From positions 1 to 64,000 of the forward strand of contig JAFXLS010000152.1 in assembly GCA_017530965.1 (NCBI GenBank): a DNA stretch of 64,000 nt, written 5' to 3'. The notes under the pieces are model-generated. The model worked only from the letters and a program-made list of their open reading frames with translations, was not told the origin of the DNA and did no database searches. Source of the DNA: Fibrobacter sp. Lineage in GTDB: Bacteria > Fibrobacterota > Fibrobacteria > Fibrobacterales > Fibrobacteraceae. A program made the position numbers and the translations under genes. Below, piece by piece: positions 11,194 to 28,811 of the stretch (the first letter of the stretch is position 1; each line of letters starts with the position of its first letter).

Positions 11194-12377
11194 GATTTCC
11201 TCTTTTGATTATAAATTTGTTTGTAAAGGTCCAATTGCCTCTTGAAGCAATCGTTCCAGCTGAATTTTTCGGCGTAGGTTCGGGCATTGGCCTTCTTTTG
11301 GCTCAAGTCCGAACGGTAAAGTTCAACGATGGCGTTTGCCAGGGCTTCGGGGGTTCGCTTTTTCAAGACAATGCCTGCACCAGAGTTTTGTACATGCTGG
11401 GCGGCAGCACCAGTGCTAGCGCCAATCTGGGCGTTCCCGCAGGCCATGCTTTCCAGAATCGAAAGGCCGAAAGTTTCCCAGCCCGAAAGGGCGAGTCCCA
11501 TGTCTACGCTGGCGTAATGCCTTGCCATTTCATCGATGGACGAAATGAATCCGGCGTACTGAATGTGGGAATGCTTCTGGACGGCTTCTTCCACTTGGGG
11601 TAAGTAGGGTCCCGTACCTGCAAAGACAAGGGCCGGTTCGCACCCAAGCTTTTCTGCAATCAGGGGGTAGGCTCCCAGCAAAAGTTCGATTCCCTTTTCT
11701 TCGCAAAAACGGTGGGGGAAAAAGATTGTGAGTCGTTCAGGTCTTCCGGCCTTCAGTTGCAAAACCAGCTTTTCATCTCGCTTTTCGGGCGAGAACATCT
11801 GAATGTCGCAACCCAGCGGAATCCAATGAGATTTCGGCAGGTGATTCTTTTCGAGCCGTTTCAGGACTTCGTTGCAAGAAACCTGGATGCCGTCAAAGTG
11901 CTTGAATTCTTGCTTGGCGTACCAGAAGGCAACCTTCTTGGCTAAAATTCCTAGCGTGCGACCAAACTTGTTCGTGACCGGGCGCTGCACATAGGTAATG
12001 GGAAAATCCGCATGCCAGAAACTCAAAAGAATCGCTTCTGGCACCACCTTCTTGGCCACATGGCGCACCACAGTGGGTAAAATATAGGGCGAACCGACTT
12101 CAATCACTTGGGGCTTGTATTTTTCAAGCACGGGCCTAATCTGCGATGGTCTCCACATAAAGCGGTATTCCCACTTGCCAGGGAATCGATACGCTTCCAC
12201 GTGCTCGATAATGAGCCCCTTGCTTTTTTGCTCGGTATATGTCTTGGAATCTGGCATTACAAAGACGGACAGGACTTCTTCCTGGTTTTCGTAAAAAGCC
12301 ATCTTCTGCAAATGATACCTGCGAACGCCTCCGCCAGAAGGACTCCAGAAATTATTGAAATCAACAATCGTGAACAT
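11190..12377 (-). CDS. Family 4 glycosyltransferase (GT-B fold)
   Basis: This 395-residue enzyme should transfer a sugar from a nucleotide-sugar donor with retention of configuration, acting on a glycan or lipid at the inner membrane face. The N-terminal segment WSPSGGGVRRYH is the glycine-rich acceptor-side loop of GT4 enzymes. The C-terminal half has FPHRFCEEKGIELLLGAY and the E-x7-E-type motif SGWETFGLSILESMACG that binds the donor. The gene overlaps the upstream primase-like gene by one base (TAATG) and the downstream Dabb gene by four. No cell-wall or capsule cluster surrounds it, so the acceptor is unknown. Confidence 0.88.
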   Translation of the reverse strand: MFTIVDFNNFWSPSGGGVRRYHLQKMAFYENQEEVLSVFVMPDSKTYTEQKSKGLIIEHVEAYRFPGKWEYRFMWRPSQIRPVLEKYKPQVIEVGSPYILPTVVRHVAKKVVPEAILLSFWHADFPITYVQRPVTNKFGRTLGILAKKVAFWYAKQEFKHFDGIQVSCNEVLKRLEKNHLPKSHWIPLGCDIQMFSPEKRDEKLVLQLKAGRPERLTIFFPHRFCEEKGIELLLGAYPLIAEKLGCEPALVFAGTGPYLPQVEEAVQKHSHIQYAGFISSIDEMARHYASVDMGLALSGWETFGLSILESMACGNAQIGASTGAAAQHVQNSGAGIVLKKRTPEALANAIVELYRSDLSQKKANARTYAEKFSWNDCFKRQLDLYKQIYNQKRKS

Positions 12378-14269
12378 TAAAGGAGCTCGATTTCTTCTTG
12401 CATGCGGTTCGAAAGCGGGTCGATAGAAAGGGTGCCCTGGTACAGCTGGTTGTTGCCGAGACGCTTTGAATCGACGGTCAGGAACATGTTGCCGTCTTTG
12501 GAATCCAGCCAGTAAATGGCGTCGGAATCGCGCAGGTAGGCTCTCGGTCCCACAAGTCCCTCTTCTGAATCGATGAGTTCTCCGCCCAAGAACAGCGGTA
12601 TGTCCAGCGCCTTGTACAAGTCAAGAATTACCGAAGAGCGCCTTTCGTGAATATCCGAAAGGTCCGCATGGTCCGAGACCTTCAAGTGGTCTAAACCGTC
12701 TATGATAACGACAAGGTTGCGGTGTTCCTTCACTTCTTCTTTCAAGTTCTGGAGCAGCACGATGTTGTCGAAATTGTTTTGGTCATCCCAAATTTCTAGG
12801 CGATTGTTGCGCACGAAAGCCATCAAGTCGCGAGTAGCTTCCAGAATTTTCTGGTTCACGGATTCGTCAATGCTCTGCTTGCGAACGGTCAGTACCGATT
12901 CGCCAATGAGCATGGCCACGAGCCTGTCAAAAATCTGGCGGCGTGGCGTTTCAAGGGCGATGTAAATCAGCTTCAGATTGGGATTGCTCTGGACCAAGTC
13001 CAAGGCGAGGCTTGAAAGGAGAGTCGTCTTCAGGCCGAAGGGCTTGGAAGATACGTAGAAACAACCGGACTGAATGCCGTCGATTTCTTGCGTCAGTTTC
13101 GGGAAGGTATTCAGGGCGTAACCCACGCTGACATCGGGCGGGCAACCCATGGCCGTATCGAAGTTTTCCTTGATATCCTGCAACAGCATGGAACGACGGT
13201 GGGTGTGTACCGTATCTTCGCCGGTATTTTGCACCAAAGAAATTAACTGGTCGGCCCCGTTCTTGCGAACCACCAGGTCTACGGTCTCTTCCTTCGGAAG
13301 TACGATGGACTTGAATTTCAAGTTCAGACGTTCCGCCATTTTCAGATATCTTTGAATGCGGAATTCCTGCTCGCGACGATCCAGTTCCCGTCTGAGAATG
13401 ACCGTGACAGATTCTGCGCCGCATGCCTTTAACTTGTACAGGTGGCTCAGTGAGAGTTCCTGGTACATGGTGGAAACCACGCCTGGTATGCCGGCAAGGT
13501 CTGCGGTCAGGGCGTCAAAGAACCCTTCTACAATGATGGGCTTCGTTACGTCGGACTGGATGTTGAACGGAATGTCACTGGGGCCCGAGGCATAAGAAAC
13601 GTAGGTGTGCGGTCCGTCGGATTCGTCAATGAGACGGCCATAAACGGAATGAATCAATCCCTTGGAATTGCGGGCGGGGATCGTGATGCGGGGTTCGTGG
13701 TAAGCGTCCAGGTTGTCTAGGTAGAAACTAATCTGGTGTCGTTCGATACCCGACATCATGCAGAAGCTGACAAAGGGTTCCGGGTCACCGCTGTAATAAC
13801 CGATGCCGTAAAGCTGGGCCTGTCCTATGCTCCAGCCTCGGGCAGCCAAGAAGTCTGCCGAAGAAGGGCTCTTGCAAGCGGCCCAGTGGCAGTAGCGCAC
13901 AAAGTTTTCCAGGACCTTATTCTTTTCTCCGCCGATTTCCTTGATCCACGGGTGTTCTTCTTGCAGTTCGTGTTCCTGTTCAAGGGTCCCTAAAAAGTTA
14001 ACGGCTTCGGCCCTGGCGGCCGGTTCTTCCATACCGTTAAAGCGGCTACGCATTACAAATTCGACTAAATCGCCTTCGCTTCCGCACTGTAGGCAGCGGT
14101 AGCGCCAATAACCCAAGGCGTCGTAAAAGAATAGCGAGGTTTCTTCGGGAGAATGGAACGGACAGCATGCAATCAGGTTTCGACCCCAGCGACTTAAAGG
14201 GATTCCCAGCTGTCGCGGATGGGTCTTGGCTCGCATGACAATTCCTGCATGTTCTTGATCAATAATCAT
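12377..14269 (-). CDS. Primase-helicase-like fusion (CHC2 zinc finger, Toprim-like, DnaB-like ATPase)
   Basis: The 630-residue protein has the domain order of phage T7 gp4 and Twinkle. A DnaG-type zinc finger lies at about 36-62 (CPFH, then CLQC). A Toprim-like region contains IIVEGFFDAL (Glu 248). A RecA/DnaB-like ATPase spans about 380-625. Key motifs deviate: the Toprim Asp-x-Asp is replaced by RRELD near 293-297. The Walker A reads SSKPFGLKTT (Lys 414), with Leu in place of the usual Gly before Lys. Walker B (LVVIIDGLD, 519-527) looks sound. Start ATG has GAGAGG ahead. It faces ruvC across 75 bases, consistent with DNA metabolism. It may be a domesticated phage or plasmid gene; catalytic activity is uncertain. 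Confidence 0.78.
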   Translation of the reverse strand: MIIDQEHAGIVMRAKTHPRQLGIPLSRWGRNLIACCPFHSPEETSLFFYDALGYWRYRCLQCGSEGDLVEFVMRSRFNGMEEPAARAEAVNFLGTLEQEHELQEEHPWIKEIGGEKNKVLENFVRYCHWAACKSPSSADFLAARGWSIGQAQLYGIGYYSGDPEPFVSFCMMSGIERHQISFYLDNLDAYHEPRITIPARNSKGLIHSVYGRLIDESDGPHTYVSYASGPSDIPFNIQSDVTKPIIVEGFFDALTADLAGIPGVVSTMYQELSLSHLYKLKACGAESVTVILRRELDRREQEFRIQRYLKMAERLNLKFKSIVLPKEETVDLVVRKNGADQLISLVQNTGEDTVHTHRRSMLLQDIKENFDTAMGCPPDVSVGYALNTFPKLTQEIDGIQSGCFYVSSKPFGLKTTLLSSLALDLVQSNPNLKLIYIALETPRRQIFDRLVAMLIGESVLTVRKQSIDESVNQKILEATRDLMAFVRNNRLEIWDDQNNFDNIVLLQNLKEEVKEHRNLVVIIDGLDHLKVSDHADLSDIHERRSSVILDLYKALDIPLFLGGELIDSEEGLVGPRAYLRDSDAIYWLDSKDGNMFLTVDSKRLGNNQLYQGTLSIDPLSNRMQEEIELL

Positions 14270-21530: not shown

Positions 21531-22235
21531 TTATGCATCAAATTTGTATCCGGCTCCTCTCACCGAAATAATGAATTTGGGGTTATCCAAATCGTCTTCG
21601 ATTTTACGGCGGAGATTGGCGATATGGTTGTCGACAGTGCGGGTCGAGGGCATGTTCTCGTCTGTATAGCCCCAGATTTCCTTAAGCAGGGTTTCGCGCA
21701 AAATGACTTCGCCTCGGTGCGCCCAGAAGAATTTCATAATCAGGTATTCGCGGGTGGTCAAATCCAGAGGAACTCCGCCTTTAGTCGCTTCAAATTTCTT
21801 CACGTTGATGCTGATGTTTGCAAATTCGAGAACGTCGGGAACAGCAATGGTGTTGTTGCTGGCCTGAGGCTCGATACGGCGGCGGAATGCCTTGACTCGG
21901 GCGAGTAATTCAAGAATCGAGAAGGGCTTGGTCACGTAGTCGTCAGCTCCCATTTCGAGGCCTGCCACCTTGCTGGTTTCTTCCGTCTTGGCGGTCAGCA
22001 TGATGATGTAGGTTTCGGGGTGCTTGTTGCGGATATAACGGCAGACTTCAAAACCGCTTTTCTTGGGAATCATCAAGTCCAGAAGCACCAAGTGGGGCTG
22101 GTAGGAATCCGCTTTTGCAATGGCTTCTTCACCATCGCAGGCGGTTTCTACGGTGTAGCCTTCCATTTCAAAATTGTCCTGGAGGCCCAAGCGAATAATT
22201 TCTTCGTCTTCTACGATGAGTATTTTGAAGTTCAT
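21531..22235 (-). CDS. OmpR/PhoB-family response regulator
   Basis: The 234-residue regulator has a receiver domain (ILIVEDEE at the acidic pocket, phosphoacceptor Asp 53 in LLDLMIP, Thr in MLTAKTEE, Lys in YVTKPFS). A C-terminal winged helix (LTTREYLIMKFFWAHRGEVILRE, then RTVDNHIANLRRKIE and VRGAGYKF) completes the OmpR/PhoB pattern. It starts 2 bases after the sensor kinase stop, so the two form a cognate pair. Targets are unknown; the neighbouring LysM and propeller genes are the natural candidates. Confidence 0.95.
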   Translation of the reverse strand: MNFKILIVEDEEIIRLGLQDNFEMEGYTVETACDGEEAIAKADSYQPHLVLLDLMIPKKSGFEVCRYIRNKHPETYIIMLTAKTEETSKVAGLEMGADDYVTKPFSILELLARVKAFRRRIEPQASNNTIAVPDVLEFANISINVKKFEATKGGVPLDLTTREYLIMKFFWAHRGEVILRETLLKEIWGYTDENMPSTRTVDNHIANLRRKIEDDLDNPKFIISVRGAGYKFDA

Positions 22236-22237
22236 GG

Positions 22238-24301
22238 TTATTCTGCCTTTTTAAACTTGACGATGAACGTGGAACCCTTACCGGGCTTGCTGACCAACGA
22301 AATGGTTGCCTTGTGAGTTTCGGCCACACGCTTGACCGTTGCAAGGCCGAGTCCGGAGCCCTTGGTACTGCGGGTCATTTCGTCACCCACTCTATAAAAA
22401 TCATTAAATATATTTTTTTGTTCAGAAACAGCGATGCCGATGCCGGTGTCTGCCACCGAGAATATGACCCAATCGCTGTCGCTTTTGACTTCAACCTTGA
22501 TGTCTCCGGGGGCGTTGGTATACTTAATGGCATTGTCAATAAGATTCTGTACCAAACTGTACAGCGCCGTGTAGTCGCCCATAACGAATACATTAGGTTC
22601 AAAATGAGTGTAGAAGGTAAGGCCCTTTTCTACGCCGATATCTTCGACAGCGTCAAAGACCTTCTTGGCGCAAATGGAAAAGTCGAGACGTTCCCACTTG
22701 AATGCTCCTGTACCGTGTTCCATGCGGGTGTAGTTGAGAATGGCCCCGATCAGGTTCTCTAGTCTAGAAGCTTCTTTGCCAATGAGGGTGGAATATTCCT
22801 GCACCTTCTCGGCTCGCTGCAATCGGCCGCGGGCCATCATTTCTGCAAACATCTTGATAGAGGTCAGAGGAGTCTTTAGTTCGTGGGAAACGCTGGACAA
22901 AAAGTTTGCCTTCATGGCCAAAAGCTTTCGCTCTTGGGTAATGAATCGGAACATAAAGAATGATCCGAAAATGACGGTGATGAGGGCGAACAACATCAAA
23001 CCGTACATCAAGAACATGCGGTGTCTGGTTTCTTTGTGAATATCTTGCATGTCTTTTTCGTACAGGGTAAATTCCCATTCCAGCGCTTCTGAAATGTAAT
23101 GCTGGGTGATGATGGGAGCGCTTTCCGGGATTTCACCCATAATGACTTTTTCGTTGTTTTCGGTAATGGAAAACGGAATGTTCTTGAATGTCTGTATGAC
23201 GGGTTTCAGCTTGTTTTGTAGTCTTGCCTTGTATGAATCCCGGTTTATAACGGCAATCACCACCTGGTCTCCCGAAAGGTAGGGATAGGACATTTTGAAC
23301 AAAGTCATTTCGTCTGTGTTCTTGTACAGGATGCCTTCTTTTGAGGAAACATCGTCATCCAGTATTTCTTGGAACAGGTCGCGGTTGTAGTACAATATGT
23401 CCATGTAGCCAAGCTGGCGGTTGAAGTTCTCCCGCAAGTTCCAGAAGGCTTCGCGCTTTTCTTGGGACAGATTTTCAAAAGAAAGAATTTGGGTGAAGGT
23501 GGACTCAAAGAAGTACCTGGACGAAGAAATATCGTCGATGTTCTGCTTCTCAAGGAATTGGGCTAGCACCGACAGACAGTAATCTTGGGCTTCCTGGTGC
23601 TTTCTCTGGTTTACCAGGATTTCGAAATGGAGCAGGTTTACGGCATATGTCAGGTCGGCATGCAAATAGCCCTGCTGATGGGGATTGTTTTCAAGAATGG
23701 CAAGCAGATGCAACGCTTCGTCATATTGTTTTCTTTTGAAGTAGAAGCGGATAAGTCCCAGAATGCTCTGGACTTGTTCGTCCTTGGTTTCAAAGAAAAA
23801 GCTTGCTGGTCTAAGGCTTCTGGCTCGTTGTTCCAAATAGATTTTTTGGGAAATGCTGTCCTTCAGTCCCTTTACTTCTTCTTGATAGAGCCTTTTGTCC
23901 AGAGCCGAGGGGACGCTGCTTGAAAAGTTCGAAGAATTGAAGAATTTCTTCGACGACAGGTCCGGATAAATCAGGTTCCTGTTATTGAACAGGAATATGG
24001 CGTCGATTCCTTCCACGGACTTGAATTCGGTGGCATGTCCAAAGTCCAGCAAACCCTGGGGTTGCTCGTACAAAAATAGGGATGCCGCCTTGGTTTCTTG
24101 GTAAATCTTCGCCTGTTCTTTTTCGATGGCGTCTTCGACTTCGTTCTGAAAGGCATTCAGGTTTTCGTCGAAGTTTTTCTGTGAAAGGTATATCTCGTTC
24201 TGGATATTCCTGAAACTCAGAACCGACAGAATTGCCGTCGGGAGGACAATTCCTCCCGCGAACAAAAGGACGAACAGCAGATTATTACGTGAAACCTGCA
24301 T
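22238..24301 (-). CDS. Sensor histidine kinase with large periplasmic sensor domain
   Basis: The 687-residue kinase has a first membrane helix at about 8-30, a periplasmic domain of some 395 residues, and a second helix at about 429-453. The HisKA motif follows (FLSSVSHELKTPLTS, His 473), then an HATPase domain with NLIDNAIKYT, VADTGIGIA and GSGLGLATVKR. The periplasmic part contains helical repeats near 175-250 that look TPR-like (FKRKQYDEALHLLAILENN), unusual for a sensor and suggestive of protein binding. The gene sits 40 bases downstream of the LysM gene and 2 bases upstream of the regulator. The signal is unknown; an envelope or peptidoglycan cue is inferred from context. Confidence 0.93.
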   Translation of the reverse strand: MQVSRNNLLFVLLFAGGIVLPTAILSVLSFRNIQNEIYLSQKNFDENLNAFQNEVEDAIEKEQAKIYQETKAASLFLYEQPQGLLDFGHATEFKSVEGIDAIFLFNNRNLIYPDLSSKKFFNSSNFSSSVPSALDKRLYQEEVKGLKDSISQKIYLEQRARSLRPASFFFETKDEQVQSILGLIRFYFKRKQYDEALHLLAILENNPHQQGYLHADLTYAVNLLHFEILVNQRKHQEAQDYCLSVLAQFLEKQNIDDISSSRYFFESTFTQILSFENLSQEKREAFWNLRENFNRQLGYMDILYYNRDLFQEILDDDVSSKEGILYKNTDEMTLFKMSYPYLSGDQVVIAVINRDSYKARLQNKLKPVIQTFKNIPFSITENNEKVIMGEIPESAPIITQHYISEALEWEFTLYEKDMQDIHKETRHRMFLMYGLMLFALITVIFGSFFMFRFITQERKLLAMKANFLSSVSHELKTPLTSIKMFAEMMARGRLQRAEKVQEYSTLIGKEASRLENLIGAILNYTRMEHGTGAFKWERLDFSICAKKVFDAVEDIGVEKGLTFYTHFEPNVFVMGDYTALYSLVQNLIDNAIKYTNAPGDIKVEVKSDSDWVIFSVADTGIGIAVSEQKNIFNDFYRVGDEMTRSTKGSGLGLATVKRVAETHKATISLVSKPGKGSTFIVKFKKAE

Positions 24302-24341
24302 TGCCAGTCCTTACGGAAATTTGGGACTTAAAGCAGTTGTC

Positions 24342-25523
24342 TTATTGGGCAATCTTTGCACGGTGGGTCACCGATACCCTGTGTCCAACTTCGATTCTTC
24401 TGCTGTTGGAGTAAATTTCGCGAATCAGAATGCTGGATTCGTTTTCGGCAGCTCTTGCGATAATGCCGCGGCCAATCAGGCGGGGCGGAAGGGATTCGTC
24501 GGTCTTGTCTTCTTCCCACACGGCAACGGCGTCACCGGTATTGTAACCTTGCTGAATACCCTTGTCGATCAACACGTAAGAGAATGCTCCAATAATCAGC
24601 ATGGGGTCCATGGAGTAACGGATCATGGCAAGGGAATCAAGCTTGGCTTCCTTAACCTTGGAGTATCCGGCTACGTTCAAAGTCTTGAGGGGCTGCTTCA
24701 TGCGAGCCTTGGACTGGCTAATCTTGATTTCGCGGAAGGTGGTGACAATCTTTGCTCGAGAAAGGGTGTCGCCAATGGCGGTAATCTTGGCAATGCCGGA
24801 AAGGCGGAGCAGGGCGTAACGGTCGAAACCGCTTCCCTTGGCAGCCGGAACGTCAATGGCCTTGGCGTCGATGATTTCGACGAGGTCGCCACGCTTCAAG
24901 TTGGCGTTGGTCTTTTTACCGATTCCCACCACCACTTCGGCTTCGGGCATGTGAATCAGGGGTTCTTTCTTTTCGCCCGACTTGATCGAGATAAAGCGCT
25001 TGTCTTTTTTCAAGGAATCAAGCGTATAGATTTCGGGGGCGTGCATCTGGTAGTAGCCATTGAAAATCTTGGGAGCCGGACGCTGCTTGTAGTAGTATTC
25101 GTCGTTGGCCTTGGCCTTCTTGATTCCCTTCTTGTCCTTGTCGCGCAGGTTGCCGAGCATGCCTTCGAAATCGCTGTTGCGTTCGTCGCCATCATCGCAA
25201 CCGGCGTTAGCGACCGTCAGCCCCTTGCCTTTGGGGAGTGCTGAATCCGAAATGCTTGCGTTACAGGGATACTTGCTCTTGTTTTCGACCTGCAACACAT
25301 TGCCTTCGCGAATGGTATCACCCAGATAAATGGAGTCGCCCGGATAAATCCAGTGCGGGTCCTCGATATGGCGGTTATTTTCCCAAAGATCCGGCCAGGC
25401 AAAGGGGTCTTTGAGGAATTCGTCGCTCAAATCCCAAAGGGTATCACCTTCTTTAACGATGTAGGCAGATGCCAACAAGGCAGAAAGTCCCAGACAGATG
25501 GATGCACATTTCAAAAATCGCAT
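24342..25523 (-). CDS. LysM-domain envelope protein, 393 aa
   Basis: A signal peptide ([20 protein letters not shown]) is followed at once by a LysM peptidoglycan-binding domain ([20 protein letters not shown], then [10 protein letters not shown]), about residues 21-70. A polar linker with [11 protein letters not shown] follows. The C-terminal half contains repeated small beta strands ([23 protein letters not shown]) as in other proteins annotated only as 'LysM domain-containing'. It is the first gene of a run with a sensor kinase, a regulator and a propeller protein, so it may supply or sense the signal at the cell wall. No catalytic motif is visible. Confidence 0.85.
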
Positions 25524-25555: not shown

Positions 25556-26884
25556 TTAACCTTTTCTTTGCTTAAAGGTAGGGGCTTTTTGGCTAAAACG
25601 TGGAATTTCTTGCGTTTTTTGGCTAAAAACGCGTTCTTGTGGGCGTTGTATGGTCCTGGAACGCTGCTTTTGGGCTGGATTCTGCCCTAAAATCCCGACG
25701 CGATCCGGTACAAACAAGAAGAGCAGTTCGAACTTTCCGGAACCCGGTTCCAGGTACAGGGGGATGTTCTTGCGGAGCATGTACCCTTCGTTGCGGAATT
25801 GCTTGATTGAACGTGCGGCAATTTCGAGATTCGAGGTCTGCAAGAGAATGCGCTCCGGTCTGGAGAAGGCTGCTGCCTGCACGACGCCCGGGGCCAACGG
25901 CTCATCACCGGGCAAGTTGAAGTAGAATGTCCAGCGGCCTTCGTTTTCTTCTTTCCCGAAGAATTTGCCGAAGAAATCCTGTTCCACATGGGAGCGGACA
26001 AACTTCATGTTTTCGCTCATGGCGTTGCGAGCGTTCAGTCGGGAAGACATCATGGCGTATTCGCGGCAGTCCATGGATACGACGCGCTTGAATTGGTTTG
26101 CAAGGGATGCCGAAACGAAAGAGGAACCCGAGTAGAATTCAAAGAAGGAATCTTCTGCATTGGGGTGAATGGCATTCTGGATGCGGAGGGGAAGCCCAAT
26201 CCAGGGATCGCGAATGCGGGGGGCCCAATCCAAAACATGCATGCTGATTCCTGTGTCACCGATGGGCATAAAGTCCCTACCGAAGGCGCTCTTGGCTTCG
26301 ACCTTGACGGGAGTTGTTCCCGCAGGATCAAAGAGAATGTCCGGCAGGCATTGGATGTGGTGACAACTGATAACTTCGGGGCAGTTTCTTTGTACGAAAT
26401 CAATGAAGGTCTTGTAACCGTGAGCTGAAAAACGTCCCTTCAGGTTTACCTGAACCAACATGGCATAGCGTCCGTCACCAGTGGCGCGGAACCAAATTTG
26501 ACGCAGAGCCTTCTTAAAGATATGCAGGTGTTCTTTTTTGAGTTGCTCAAAGACGTTAGTTACGATCTCGGGCGTATCCATGTCGCGGGCGGGAGCTTCA
26601 ATGGAAAGCTTTTCTTGTTCGCCATGGTAAGTTTTGAGAATGCGCCAGTCGGAATGTTCTGGCACGGCTTCGGCAGTGTACCAGGCCTGGAACTTGCCTG
26701 GGATATGTTCGTTCTGGGCCCAGGCTGCGAGTTGTTGCTTGATGTCTTCAAAAGTCAGCGCTGCTTTACGTACAGGCTTTTCTGCCTTCGGGGCTTTGTC
26801 TTGAATCTTGTCGCGACGTACGGAATTTCCGCGTGCGCGATTGTTTGTACTTCTAAAATTGTCTTTCATTCTTTCTTGTTTCAT
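25556..26884 (-). CDS. TrmA/RlmD-like methyltransferase-fold protein with altered catalytic motif
   Basis: The 442-residue protein resembles the C-terminal half of uracil-C5 RNA methyltransferases. FFEFYSGSSFVSASLANQFKRVVSMDC aligns with their SAM site 'lDlYCGvGtFsl.la....V.g.E'. The stretch RILLQTSNLEIAARSI aligns with 'rivYvSCnpaTlaRDl', with Ser where the nucleophile Cys should be. The first 45 residues and the last 35 are basic and Gln/Arg-rich, probably disordered. Starts at 26884 or 26869 are both possible. It may be a non-catalytic RNA-binding relative or act differently. It lies 64 bases downstream of the PrimPol/RepA-like gene on the same strand. Confidence 0.65.
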   Translation of the reverse strand: MKQERMKDNFRSTNNRARGNSVRRDKIQDKAPKAEKPVRKAALTFEDIKQQLAAWAQNEHIPGKFQAWYTAEAVPEHSDWRILKTYHGEQEKLSIEAPARDMDTPEIVTNVFEQLKKEHLHIFKKALRQIWFRATGDGRYAMLVQVNLKGRFSAHGYKTFIDFVQRNCPEVISCHHIQCLPDILFDPAGTTPVKVEAKSAFGRDFMPIGDTGISMHVLDWAPRIRDPWIGLPLRIQNAIHPNAEDSFFEFYSGSSFVSASLANQFKRVVSMDCREYAMMSSRLNARNAMSENMKFVRSHVEQDFFGKFFGKEENEGRWTFYFNLPGDEPLAPGVVQAAAFSRPERILLQTSNLEIAARSIKQFRNEGYMLRKNIPLYLEPGSGKFELLFLFVPDRVGILGQNPAQKQRSRTIQRPQERVFSQKTQEIPRFSQKAPTFKQRKG

Positions 26885-26948: not shown

Positions 26949-28703
26949 CTACACCAGGAATCTCGGATAGATCCAGGAGCATTCGCGGGCAAGCATCTTC
27001 GGGAATTCGCGGAAGGTTCCGTTGATCTGGTAGAGGTTCAGGCTACCTTCCACAGGTGAAAGCTTAATCAGCGAGTCGGCTCGGGCTTCCAGGTAGGGGT
27101 ATTCGTCGATGTTGCAGGACGATACCACGGCGCAGCCCGTGAGAGCGATAATGGTGTCCACCATCTGCATCAGAATCTGGTGGGGCGCGCCATTCAGTCG
27201 CGTGGACTTCGGGTTATGCAACACTGCAGAAATGGGGTCGATTACCACCACGCGGTAATCGTGGTTTTCCAGTCGCTTGGCACCTTGGATACGCTTGGCA
27301 ATCAGCTGCGCCGTTTCAATCGGCGAAAGAGCTGTTCCGCGCAGGTTCAAGAAACCGAACTTCGGGGTGCTGGCGTTCAGGTTGCGCTTTCCGCCCAGCA
27401 AGTAAAGACGGTTCAGGAATACGGACTTGGTCAGTTCGAAGTTGATGAACAGGACGTCGCTTGAAGAGGTGGCGTTTCCAAACCAGTCTTCTCCGTAGCA
27501 AATGGAGAGGCCCAAGTCCATAAGTGCAAGGGATTTGCCGCTTTTCGGAGGTGCGGTGAACAAGAAAAATTCACCGGCACGGAGCATGTTCTCTACGATG
27601 GTCTGGTCTTTCTTGGGCGCTTCTTCGGTATCGCTGGCAAGCTCAATGAGGGGCTTTCCGTCCAGGGAATATTCCACCCATTCCTGCCATTCCTTGAAGT
27701 TCTTGGCGCCCTGTTCAAGACCAATCAGGTACTGCTGCTTACCGCCACGGAGCACGCCCGGCATGCGGACCATCATGTGCGGGTTGCGATTGCTGGAATC
27801 AACCTTGAATCCCTGGGAGTCCAAAGTCTTGAAAAGGAAATCGACTCTTTCGTAGTATTCTTCTTCGTCGTTGGCGAAAATCTTGATCCAGGCCTGTACG
27901 GAGTTTGCACCGGTGTTTACCAAGGCGGCACAGGGGAGGTTCAAGGCCTTAAAGTAGGCCAGCTGCTTGGCCAAGGACATTTTGGGATTGTCGACAACGA
28001 CATAGCGGTAGCGCCAGGATTCATCGGAGGCGTCTTCGCCGCCTTTGACGGCGTTGATGCAAAGAAGGGCGCCTTCGGGACTGTCGAGACTCTTCATGAT
28101 TTTCTTGATAGAGTCGTCCTGCCCGATGATGTTCGAAACGAGTTCTTCGGTGGAATCTGGAGTATTCGATACCTTGAACGAAATGGTTTCGTCAGGGTCG
28201 AAGGTTGCTTCGAGAAGCTTGGCCAGGTCTTTACGCCAGTCTGCGGCGGGCCATGGAATGGAAAGGGCTTCGGGATCGATTTTGAAGTTCTGCAACAGTT
28301 CCAGGGATTGGGTATCCAGTCCCATGGCCAGCATCTGCTCCATGGAAATCATGTTCGCCGAAAGCGGGGTGATAATCGGCATGGCCACGGTTTGCGGAGC
28401 CGAGGGCGCTTGAGCGGGGGCACCCTCCGCAACCGGGGCTGCGTTCTGTGCCGGCGCGGGCTGTTCCTGGGGGCGTTCTGCGGAGCGCTTTTCGGCAGAG
28501 AACGCACGGCGCAGGGTCTGTTCGACTTCTTCGCCGTCCATGCCGTCATCGCGGGCCTTGCCGCCCAGCTGGAAACTCGCGTCCATGAACGTCCAACCTT
28601 CTTCCATGGCGGCAACGCCCGCCTTGTACAATTCGGTTTTGAGTTCGTTCGGACTAAAAGTGCCTTTTAAGAACAGGTTGATGGTCTTTTTTGCGTTTTC
28701 CAT
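26949..28703 (-). CDS. PrimPol-like / RepA-type RecA ATPase fusion, 584 aa
   Basis: The protein has four parts. An N-terminal helical domain spans about 1-70 and is followed by a Pro/Ala/Gln linker. An archaeo-eukaryotic-primase-like region lies at about 155-330: YRYVVVDNPKMSLAKQLAY, NTGANSVQAWIKIF, then NRNPHMMVRMPGVLRGGKQQ. A RepA-type (AAA_25) ATPase follows, with Walker A APPKSGKS near 384-391 and Walker B VVVIDPIS. In relatives from phages and plasmids the middle motif is SGGKS-x-H; here His is replaced by Gln 270 and the upstream acidic motif is weakened, so the primase is probably inactive. The ribosome site TGAGG precedes ATG. It may be a domesticated replication protein; its present job is unknown. 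Confidence 0.72.
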   Translation of the reverse strand: MENAKKTINLFLKGTFSPNELKTELYKAGVAAMEEGWTFMDASFQLGGKARDDGMDGEEVEQTLRRAFSAEKRSAERPQEQPAPAQNAAPVAEGAPAQAPSAPQTVAMPIITPLSANMISMEQMLAMGLDTQSLELLQNFKIDPEALSIPWPAADWRKDLAKLLEATFDPDETISFKVSNTPDSTEELVSNIIGQDDSIKKIMKSLDSPEGALLCINAVKGGEDASDESWRYRYVVVDNPKMSLAKQLAYFKALNLPCAALVNTGANSVQAWIKIFANDEEEYYERVDFLFKTLDSQGFKVDSSNRNPHMMVRMPGVLRGGKQQYLIGLEQGAKNFKEWQEWVEYSLDGKPLIELASDTEEAPKKDQTIVENMLRAGEFFLFTAPPKSGKSLALMDLGLSICYGEDWFGNATSSSDVLFINFELTKSVFLNRLYLLGGKRNLNASTPKFGFLNLRGTALSPIETAQLIAKRIQGAKRLENHDYRVVVIDPISAVLHNPKSTRLNGAPHQILMQMVDTIIALTGCAVVSSCNIDEYPYLEARADSLIKLSPVEGSLNLYQINGTFREFPKMLARECSWIYPRFLV

Positions 28704-28780: not shown

Positions 28781-28811
28781 AAAAAACGCCCCGGAATCGC
28801 TCCGGAGTGTT
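28781..28811 (-). terminator. Rho-independent terminator of glnS
   Basis: Read on the minus strand, ACACTCCGGA and TCCGGGGCGT arms pair around a GCGAT loop and are followed by TTTTTT (28786-28781). It stands about 150 bases after the glnS stop and ahead of the next gene start at 28703, so it should separate the two transcripts. Confidence 0.8.

Follow-up and report, generated by a model that had tools for sequence, protein, structure and literature searches.

Primases of the PrimPol-PV1 group are described as being encoded almost only by mobile elements, and one family of this group, InversePrim, has the architecture PriCT – AEP – RepA ATPase; all the InversePrim elements examined by the authors who described them were prophages (Kazlauskas et al. 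2018, PMC5862659). Among the papers searched, the term 'InversePrim' occurs in this original description only, and the two that name F. succinogenes together with primase looked unrelated to judge by title and abstract. Among enzymes with an AEP domain, the active primase-polymerase PolpTN2 requires its motif I acids and its motif IV Arg (a DID-to-LIL mutant, from which both motif I acids are removed, is dead), and it natively has Gln at motif II, as does the RepB' family (PMC5862659). RepA-type helicases for their part require Lys, Glu, Asp, the motif 3 His and an arginine finger, the position of the last differing between RepA and GP46 (PMC8965321).

The stretch of Fibrobacter sp. DNA analyzed here (the window, 64,000 nucleotides) has on its reverse strand an ORF of 584 codons, with start ATG and stop TAG (26949..28703, -), whose product we call pseudo-PrimPol. 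A sequence-only reading of the window had likened it to phage and plasmid PrimPol-RepA fusions, and this kinship proved to be far beyond chance. Residues 157-527 match PHROG 2597 'DNA primase' in a profile search of the window ORF (E 2.5e-71), residues 357-527 match the Pfam family AAA_25 (E 5.5e-20), the ATPase part matches a RepA profile (E 7.8e-9), and tblastn against phages gives matches, annotated as primase/helicase, with ~30% identity and E values down to 3e-48. The AEP domain is not seen by Pfam alone; hhalign of the AEP parts of the cellular clade and of the phage proteins gives E 7.8e-39. In phages the homologous gene lies in a replication module with genes for a helicase, RusA/resolvase and terminase. 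Like the InversePrim/PHROG 2597 proteins, pseudo-PrimPol has an AEP domain followed by a C-terminal RepA-type RecA ATPase, with homology over residues 157-527, and it has the RecA-type AAA_25 core in common with the hexameric helicase RepA of plasmid RSF1010 (1g8y, 1nlf). Unlike phage InversePrim proteins (~745 aa) it has 584 aa and no C-terminal extension; unlike them it is a core gene rather than prophage or phage encoded, has Gln rather than His at motif II and D-x-P at motif I, and lacks the motif 3 His, the arginine finger and a detectable PriCT-2. Because defining features, when tested, were not found, pseudo-PrimPol is not a functional InversePrim member.

The place of the phage PriCT-2 is occupied by an N-terminal helical domain (residues 1-75; 28479..28703, -), which is followed by a variable, disordered Pro/Ala linker (residues 76-148; 28260..28478, -). 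Both segments had been proposed from the sequence and both are seen in the AlphaFold2 model of the window protein, which runs from N-terminal helices (2-75) through a disordered stretch (~72-148, pLDDT mostly <50) to an AEP-like part and a RecA core. Mean pLDDT is 76 and pTM 0.43, so that domain placement in this model is unreliable. PriCT_2 (PF08707) is found in the phage members with E values of about 1e-19 to 1e-20, as is AAA_25, but is absent from the window protein and from the proteins of loci L217, L220 and L093, and the N-terminal domain scores an hhalign probability of 1.5% against PriCT-2. The AlphaFold2 model of a phage protein has the AEP strands and helices in the same order as the Fibrobacter protein, and in Foldseek searches of a viral library the Fibrobacter model matches phage primase-helicases. 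Against the PDB the best folds were Rad51-like for the Fibrobacter model and RepA for the phage model; the top 50 of both searches held RecA folds only and no AEP structure. The AEP identity therefore rests on sequence family and motifs; for the phage family it rests on the annotation of PHROG and of phage records, on the published architecture and on the pattern of motifs.

Does the AEP domain retain the residues of a primase? Motif I (VVVDNPKM; 27978..28001, -) reads D238-N-P240 where the phage proteins have ExD, the second acid having become Pro240, and motif II (TGANSVQAW; 27888..27914, -) reads S-V-Q270 where they have SGxKSxHAI, the His being replaced by Q270 and the Ile by W272. The 'weak acidic motif' and the His-to-Gln change on which the sequence-only reading had remarked are thus both real. 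The region of motifs III-IV (KVDSSNRNPHMMVRMPGVLR; 27747..27806, -) retains D302, R313 and R319 in Fibrobacter. D238, P240 and Q270 occur in 84 of 84 Fibrobacter rows, and D302 and R313 in 85 of 85, but some genomes are counted twice in these rows, so that independent genomes are fewer than 84-85. All four Pro codons are seen at site 240. Across the clade Q270 and W272 are present in 22 of 22 members aligned and missing from the phage proteins, and the second motif I acid is replaced by Pro, Asn, Arg or Lys in 22 of 22. In some genera outside Fibrobacter motif III is N, S or E (Asn or Ser in three sequences, from genera g18, g19 and g20). The motif IV Arg, a likeness to InversePrim, was assigned by choosing phage R303/R309 from their position after motif III, and is present in all Fibrobacteraceae (f1) sequences aligned; in the sister family f2 both motif IV Arg are gone and motif I is E-N-R/K. 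By contrast, the 79 phage proteins from the viral collection show no variation at the E and D of motif I, the S and H of motif II, the D of motif III or the Arg of motif IV. Since the pattern search that gathered these proteins was built on HHHSK and MAxFxNQ, without primase motifs, this count is unselected, whereas the HHHSK count is selected. An orthologue with an intact primase was sought among the Fibrobacter and clade sequences and none was found.

That the primase is inactive is a claim that survives on grounds other than those first given for it. The His-to-Gln change is not diagnostic, because PolpTN2 has Gln yet is active, and Gln at motif II together with D302 remains compatible with catalysis in some AEPs. 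Loss of primer synthesis is inferred mainly because the second motif I acid is missing everywhere, and the erosion of motifs III and IV points the same way; PolpTN2 and RepB', which resemble pseudo-PrimPol at motif II, keep their metal-binding acids, and PolpTN2 also the motif IV Arg with Asn. An unusual primase-polymerase that is still active, with D238 and D302 binding one metal through a displaced ligand, would suit the Gln of PolpTN2 and RepB' and the conservation of D302, R313 and R319 in Fibrobacter. We nevertheless consider it very improbable, given that joint loss of both motif I acids abolished PolpTN2 activity and the second is gone in every clade member, that three sequences of g18, g19 and g20 have Asn or Ser in place of the motif III acid, and that f2 lacks the motif IV Arg. 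The fixed Q270-x-W272 site beside the old nucleotide pocket looks, from its sequence, like remodelling more than plain decay.

The ATPase part had been called sound, and here the outcome is divided. Its Walker A (APPKSGKS; 27531..27554, -) and Walker B (VVVIDPIS; 27228..27251, -) are retained, K390 and D489 being invariant in the motif alignment (22 of 22 clade members for each). The catalytic Glu423 of motif 1a (INFELTK; 27426..27446, -) drifts within the clade (E in 16 of 22, D in five, N in one), and the region of motif 3 and the arginine finger (SSCNIDEYPYLEARAD plus a deletion; 27075..27122, -) is degenerate where phages have HHHSKG..DRxSGSG..RDPDA. In 22 of 22 clade members the HHHSKG and DRxSGSGxxxRDPDA stretches are replaced and partly deleted, with ~15 phage-invariant residues gone around the motif 3 His and the arginine-finger segment; we take the Arg of DRxSGSG to be the finger, from its alignment with RepA. 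RSF1010 RepA has both of these elements and pseudo-PrimPol has neither. ATP binding is likely to judge from these motifs, and residual ATPase activity is possible because every member has Walker A and B intact; unwinding has most likely been lost because two of the elements required in RepA helicases are missing, and autonomous DNA unwinding is not likely. The primase alone might have died, leaving the RecA-type part as a working helicase or translocase. The invariant K390 and D489 and the motif 1a Glu of most members speak for such a motor, and a trans arginine could come from another protein in a hetero-oligomer, but with the phage-invariant motif 3 His and finger segment gone and Glu423 changed to Asp or Asn in 6 of 22 we think it unlikely.

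All 80 Fibrobacter genomes carry the pseudo-PrimPol gene, as do Fibrobacteraceae genera g16 and g18-g24 and both f2 genomes. It was not found in genus g15 (1 genome) or g17 (12 genomes, some >90% complete), and in other families no orthologue was found, the rest of the phylum giving more distant matches only. In nearly all genomes it is single copy, at a fixed locus. In the tree the cellular forms are set apart by a branch whose support is 100/100, and the branches between phage and cellular forms are very long. Searched with the window protein alone, the viral collection yielded no close relative; searched with the clade alignment it gave one distant match (32%), and a plasmid search gave one match, a phage-type homologue. 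Estimates of dN/dS are about 0.03-0.07 for the AEP domain, 0.02-0.10 for the ATPase and higher for the linker, with dS often near saturation. The methyltransferase-like, LysM and kinase proteins encoded next to it all diverge faster than pseudo-PrimPol. On these comparisons, phage ancestry, vertical inheritance, loss of catalytic residues and purifying selection can be taken as established, as can, as far as the data tell, a single origin of the cellular form. The simplest history would be one domestication before the f1/f2 split, with later loss in g15 and g17. The proposal of a core chromosomal protein derived from a replication module and devoid of primase chemistry thus holds, with its 80 of 80 Fibrobacter genomes, conserved gene order and motif loss. 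The role of a DNA-stress ATPase, also put forward from the sequence alone, is conjectural.

Directly downstream on the same strand lies a gene for a TrmA/RlmD-like methyltransferase-fold protein without the catalytic Cys (25556..26884, -), then come genes for a LysM protein (24342..25523, -), a histidine kinase (22238..24301, -) and a response regulator (21531..22235, -). Every Fibrobacter locus of sufficient length has this order, and it recurs in other Fibrobacteraceae genera where the flank suffices. The LysM, kinase and regulator genes (21531-25523, -) are separated by 2-40 bp, are conserved beside the RlmD-like gene across the order, and look like an envelope-signalling operon. Upstream genes vary: only close relatives of the window have glnS as the next gene upstream, on the same strand. 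A stem-loop behind glnS (28789..28807, -), terminator-like by consensus match only, suggests that pseudo-PrimPol may begin its own transcription unit. No RNA element at the locus was matched in Rfam. The RlmD-like protein has a TrmA/RlmD-type fold (5xj1, E 4.5e-20); in f1 and f2 its catalytic Cys is replaced by Ser, Gly or another residue and its DPPR is degraded, whereas both are intact in the class-level outgroup f3, the Fibrobacter count at the Cys position being taken from tblastn best matches that may include paralogues. Further, more distant RlmD-like matches occur elsewhere in the same genomes.

The locus bears on three other readings. A recent prophage remnant or pseudogene, for which only the phage ancestry speaks, is refuted for practical purposes: a prophage was looked for around the gene and none was seen, the loci compared across Fibrobacteraceae genera have no phage genes beside it, the gene is conserved across the family and order, and dN/dS is far below 1. 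An anti-phage decoy would act as a dominant-negative copy and poison the replisome of any phage that has the intact protein; this would fit the presence, in the bin of a Fibrobacter MAG, of a contig with an intact phage-type homologue (L095). The decoy reading seems to us a long shot, since a slowly evolving gene, universal in Fibrobacter and single copy nearly everywhere at a fixed locus, is unlike typical defence genes and no PADLOC model matched; a defence gene in general was rejected on the latter ground. More weight is due to a reading in which pseudo-PrimPol serves RNA or ribosomes together with the RlmD-like pseudo-methyltransferase, instead of acting on DNA. The pseudo-PrimPol and RlmD-like genes are adjacent on the same strand, with gaps of ~1-64 bp, in every Fibrobacteraceae genus examined that has pseudo-PrimPol, and the RlmD-like Cys was lost in the order Fibrobacterales and is present in the class-level outgroup. 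Against a dedicated pair, g15 and g17 retain the RlmD-like gene without pseudo-PrimPol, and in f2 the RlmD-like gene adjoins LysM and pseudo-PrimPol is located elsewhere; because f2 has the methyltransferase-LysM pair without pseudo-PrimPol, that order is the older. An RNA factor is accordingly an idea worth keeping in mind, albeit an unlikely one. Phage-derived DnaC/DnaI offered an analogy for a replacement of the helicase loader DciA; this candidate was rejected, as DciA occurs in nearly all genomes with or without pseudo-PrimPol.

A possible partner by shared distribution is a degenerate fusion of DnaG (Zn ribbon and TOPRIM) with a DnaB-like protein (630 aa; 12377..14269, -), which keeps the Zn ribbon but lacks the TOPRIM DxD and has a broken P-loop. 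Its gene shares one base with the start of a glycosyltransferase gene and lies 13 kb from pseudo-PrimPol in the window and about 12-16 kb in the genomes compared. The fusion is found in all Fibrobacter and most Fibrobacteraceae genomes and is absent in g15, g17 and f2; within Fibrobacteraceae its distribution is nearly identical to that of pseudo-PrimPol. The joint absence in g15 and g17 could go back to a single event and gives weak support to a partnership. One may go further and imagine a 'pseudo-primosome', a single lineage-specific, non-catalytic nucleoprotein complex of pseudo-PrimPol-RepA, pseudo-DnaG-DnaB and the Cys-less RlmD-like protein, in which the DnaB-like partner, whose own P-loop is lost and whose RxYxRDxD stretch is mostly retained, would complete the intact Walker site of pseudo-PrimPol in trans; we offer this as a speculation with rather poor prospects. 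Members of genus g17 (G102, G104, G106, G107) have neither pseudo-PrimPol nor the DnaG-DnaB-like protein and carry the RlmD-like gene in a different neighbourhood, so that the genus is a natural knock-out for comparison.

The reading we favor, and hold to be probable, is that a phage replication protein was domesticated once, in ancient times, and became a nucleotide-binding scaffold that neither primes nor unwinds. A Fibrobacterales ancestor would have captured a PriCT-AEP-RepA ('InversePrim'-type) replication protein from a phage, which then became a vertically inherited cellular gene. Primer synthesis would have gone with the second motif I acid, the motif II His-to-Gln change and, in some lineages, the erosion of motifs III and IV, and DNA unwinding most likely with the RepA motif 3 His and arginine-finger segment; the N-terminal PriCT-2 and a C-terminal region with helix-turn-helix-like segments would also have been shed, while the AEP and RecA folds, Walker A and B and the remodelled Q270-x-W272 site were kept. 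We infer for the product a new cellular job, non-enzymatic or ATP-switched. It may be an ATP-binding, oligomerizing scaffold that would act together with the neighboring RlmD-like protein. Its pseudo-primase domain would bind, but not chemically alter, a nucleotide, the end of a nucleic acid or a partner, and its variable linker would tether the N-terminal helical adaptor; the scaffold mode, the ATP switch, the nucleic-acid role and the partnership are all predictions of this reading.

What would be new is a phage InversePrim-type protein turned cellular pseudo-enzyme, which perhaps works like a non-catalytic primase subunit. PriX, a subunit of archaeal primase, is such a non-catalytic, primase-associated protein; it is comparable in its way of working and is no orthologue, since it resembles PriCT/PriL, unlike the AEP catalytic domain (PMC5862659). 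A broader parallel is Prp8, an inactivated reverse transcriptase (PMC8987985). Here a PrimPol-PV1 member was captured long enough ago to span a bacterial order and has lost its chemistry, yet most of the proteins encoded around it are less strongly conserved; it is a rare and clean example of a pseudo-enzyme exapted from phage replication. Its hosts are important cellulose-degrading bacteria of rumen and gut, and P240, Q270, W272 and K390 are handles for asking what a dead primase is good for.

Two kinds of further homologue were noted in the genomes. The intact phage-type PrimPol-RepA of L095 (L095:1482-3713, G028:C64; 744 aa, with ExD, SxH and HHHSKG) is flanked by genes for a DEAD-type helicase and a RusA-like protein on a 5-kb contig of a Fibrobacter MAG; its host is unsure because that MAG has 8% contamination. 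Extra ATPase-only RepA-like proteins of ~360 aa occur in genera g16 and g21 (L222, G095:C49; L223, G161:C24) and have ~25% identity to the ATPase part of pseudo-PrimPol.
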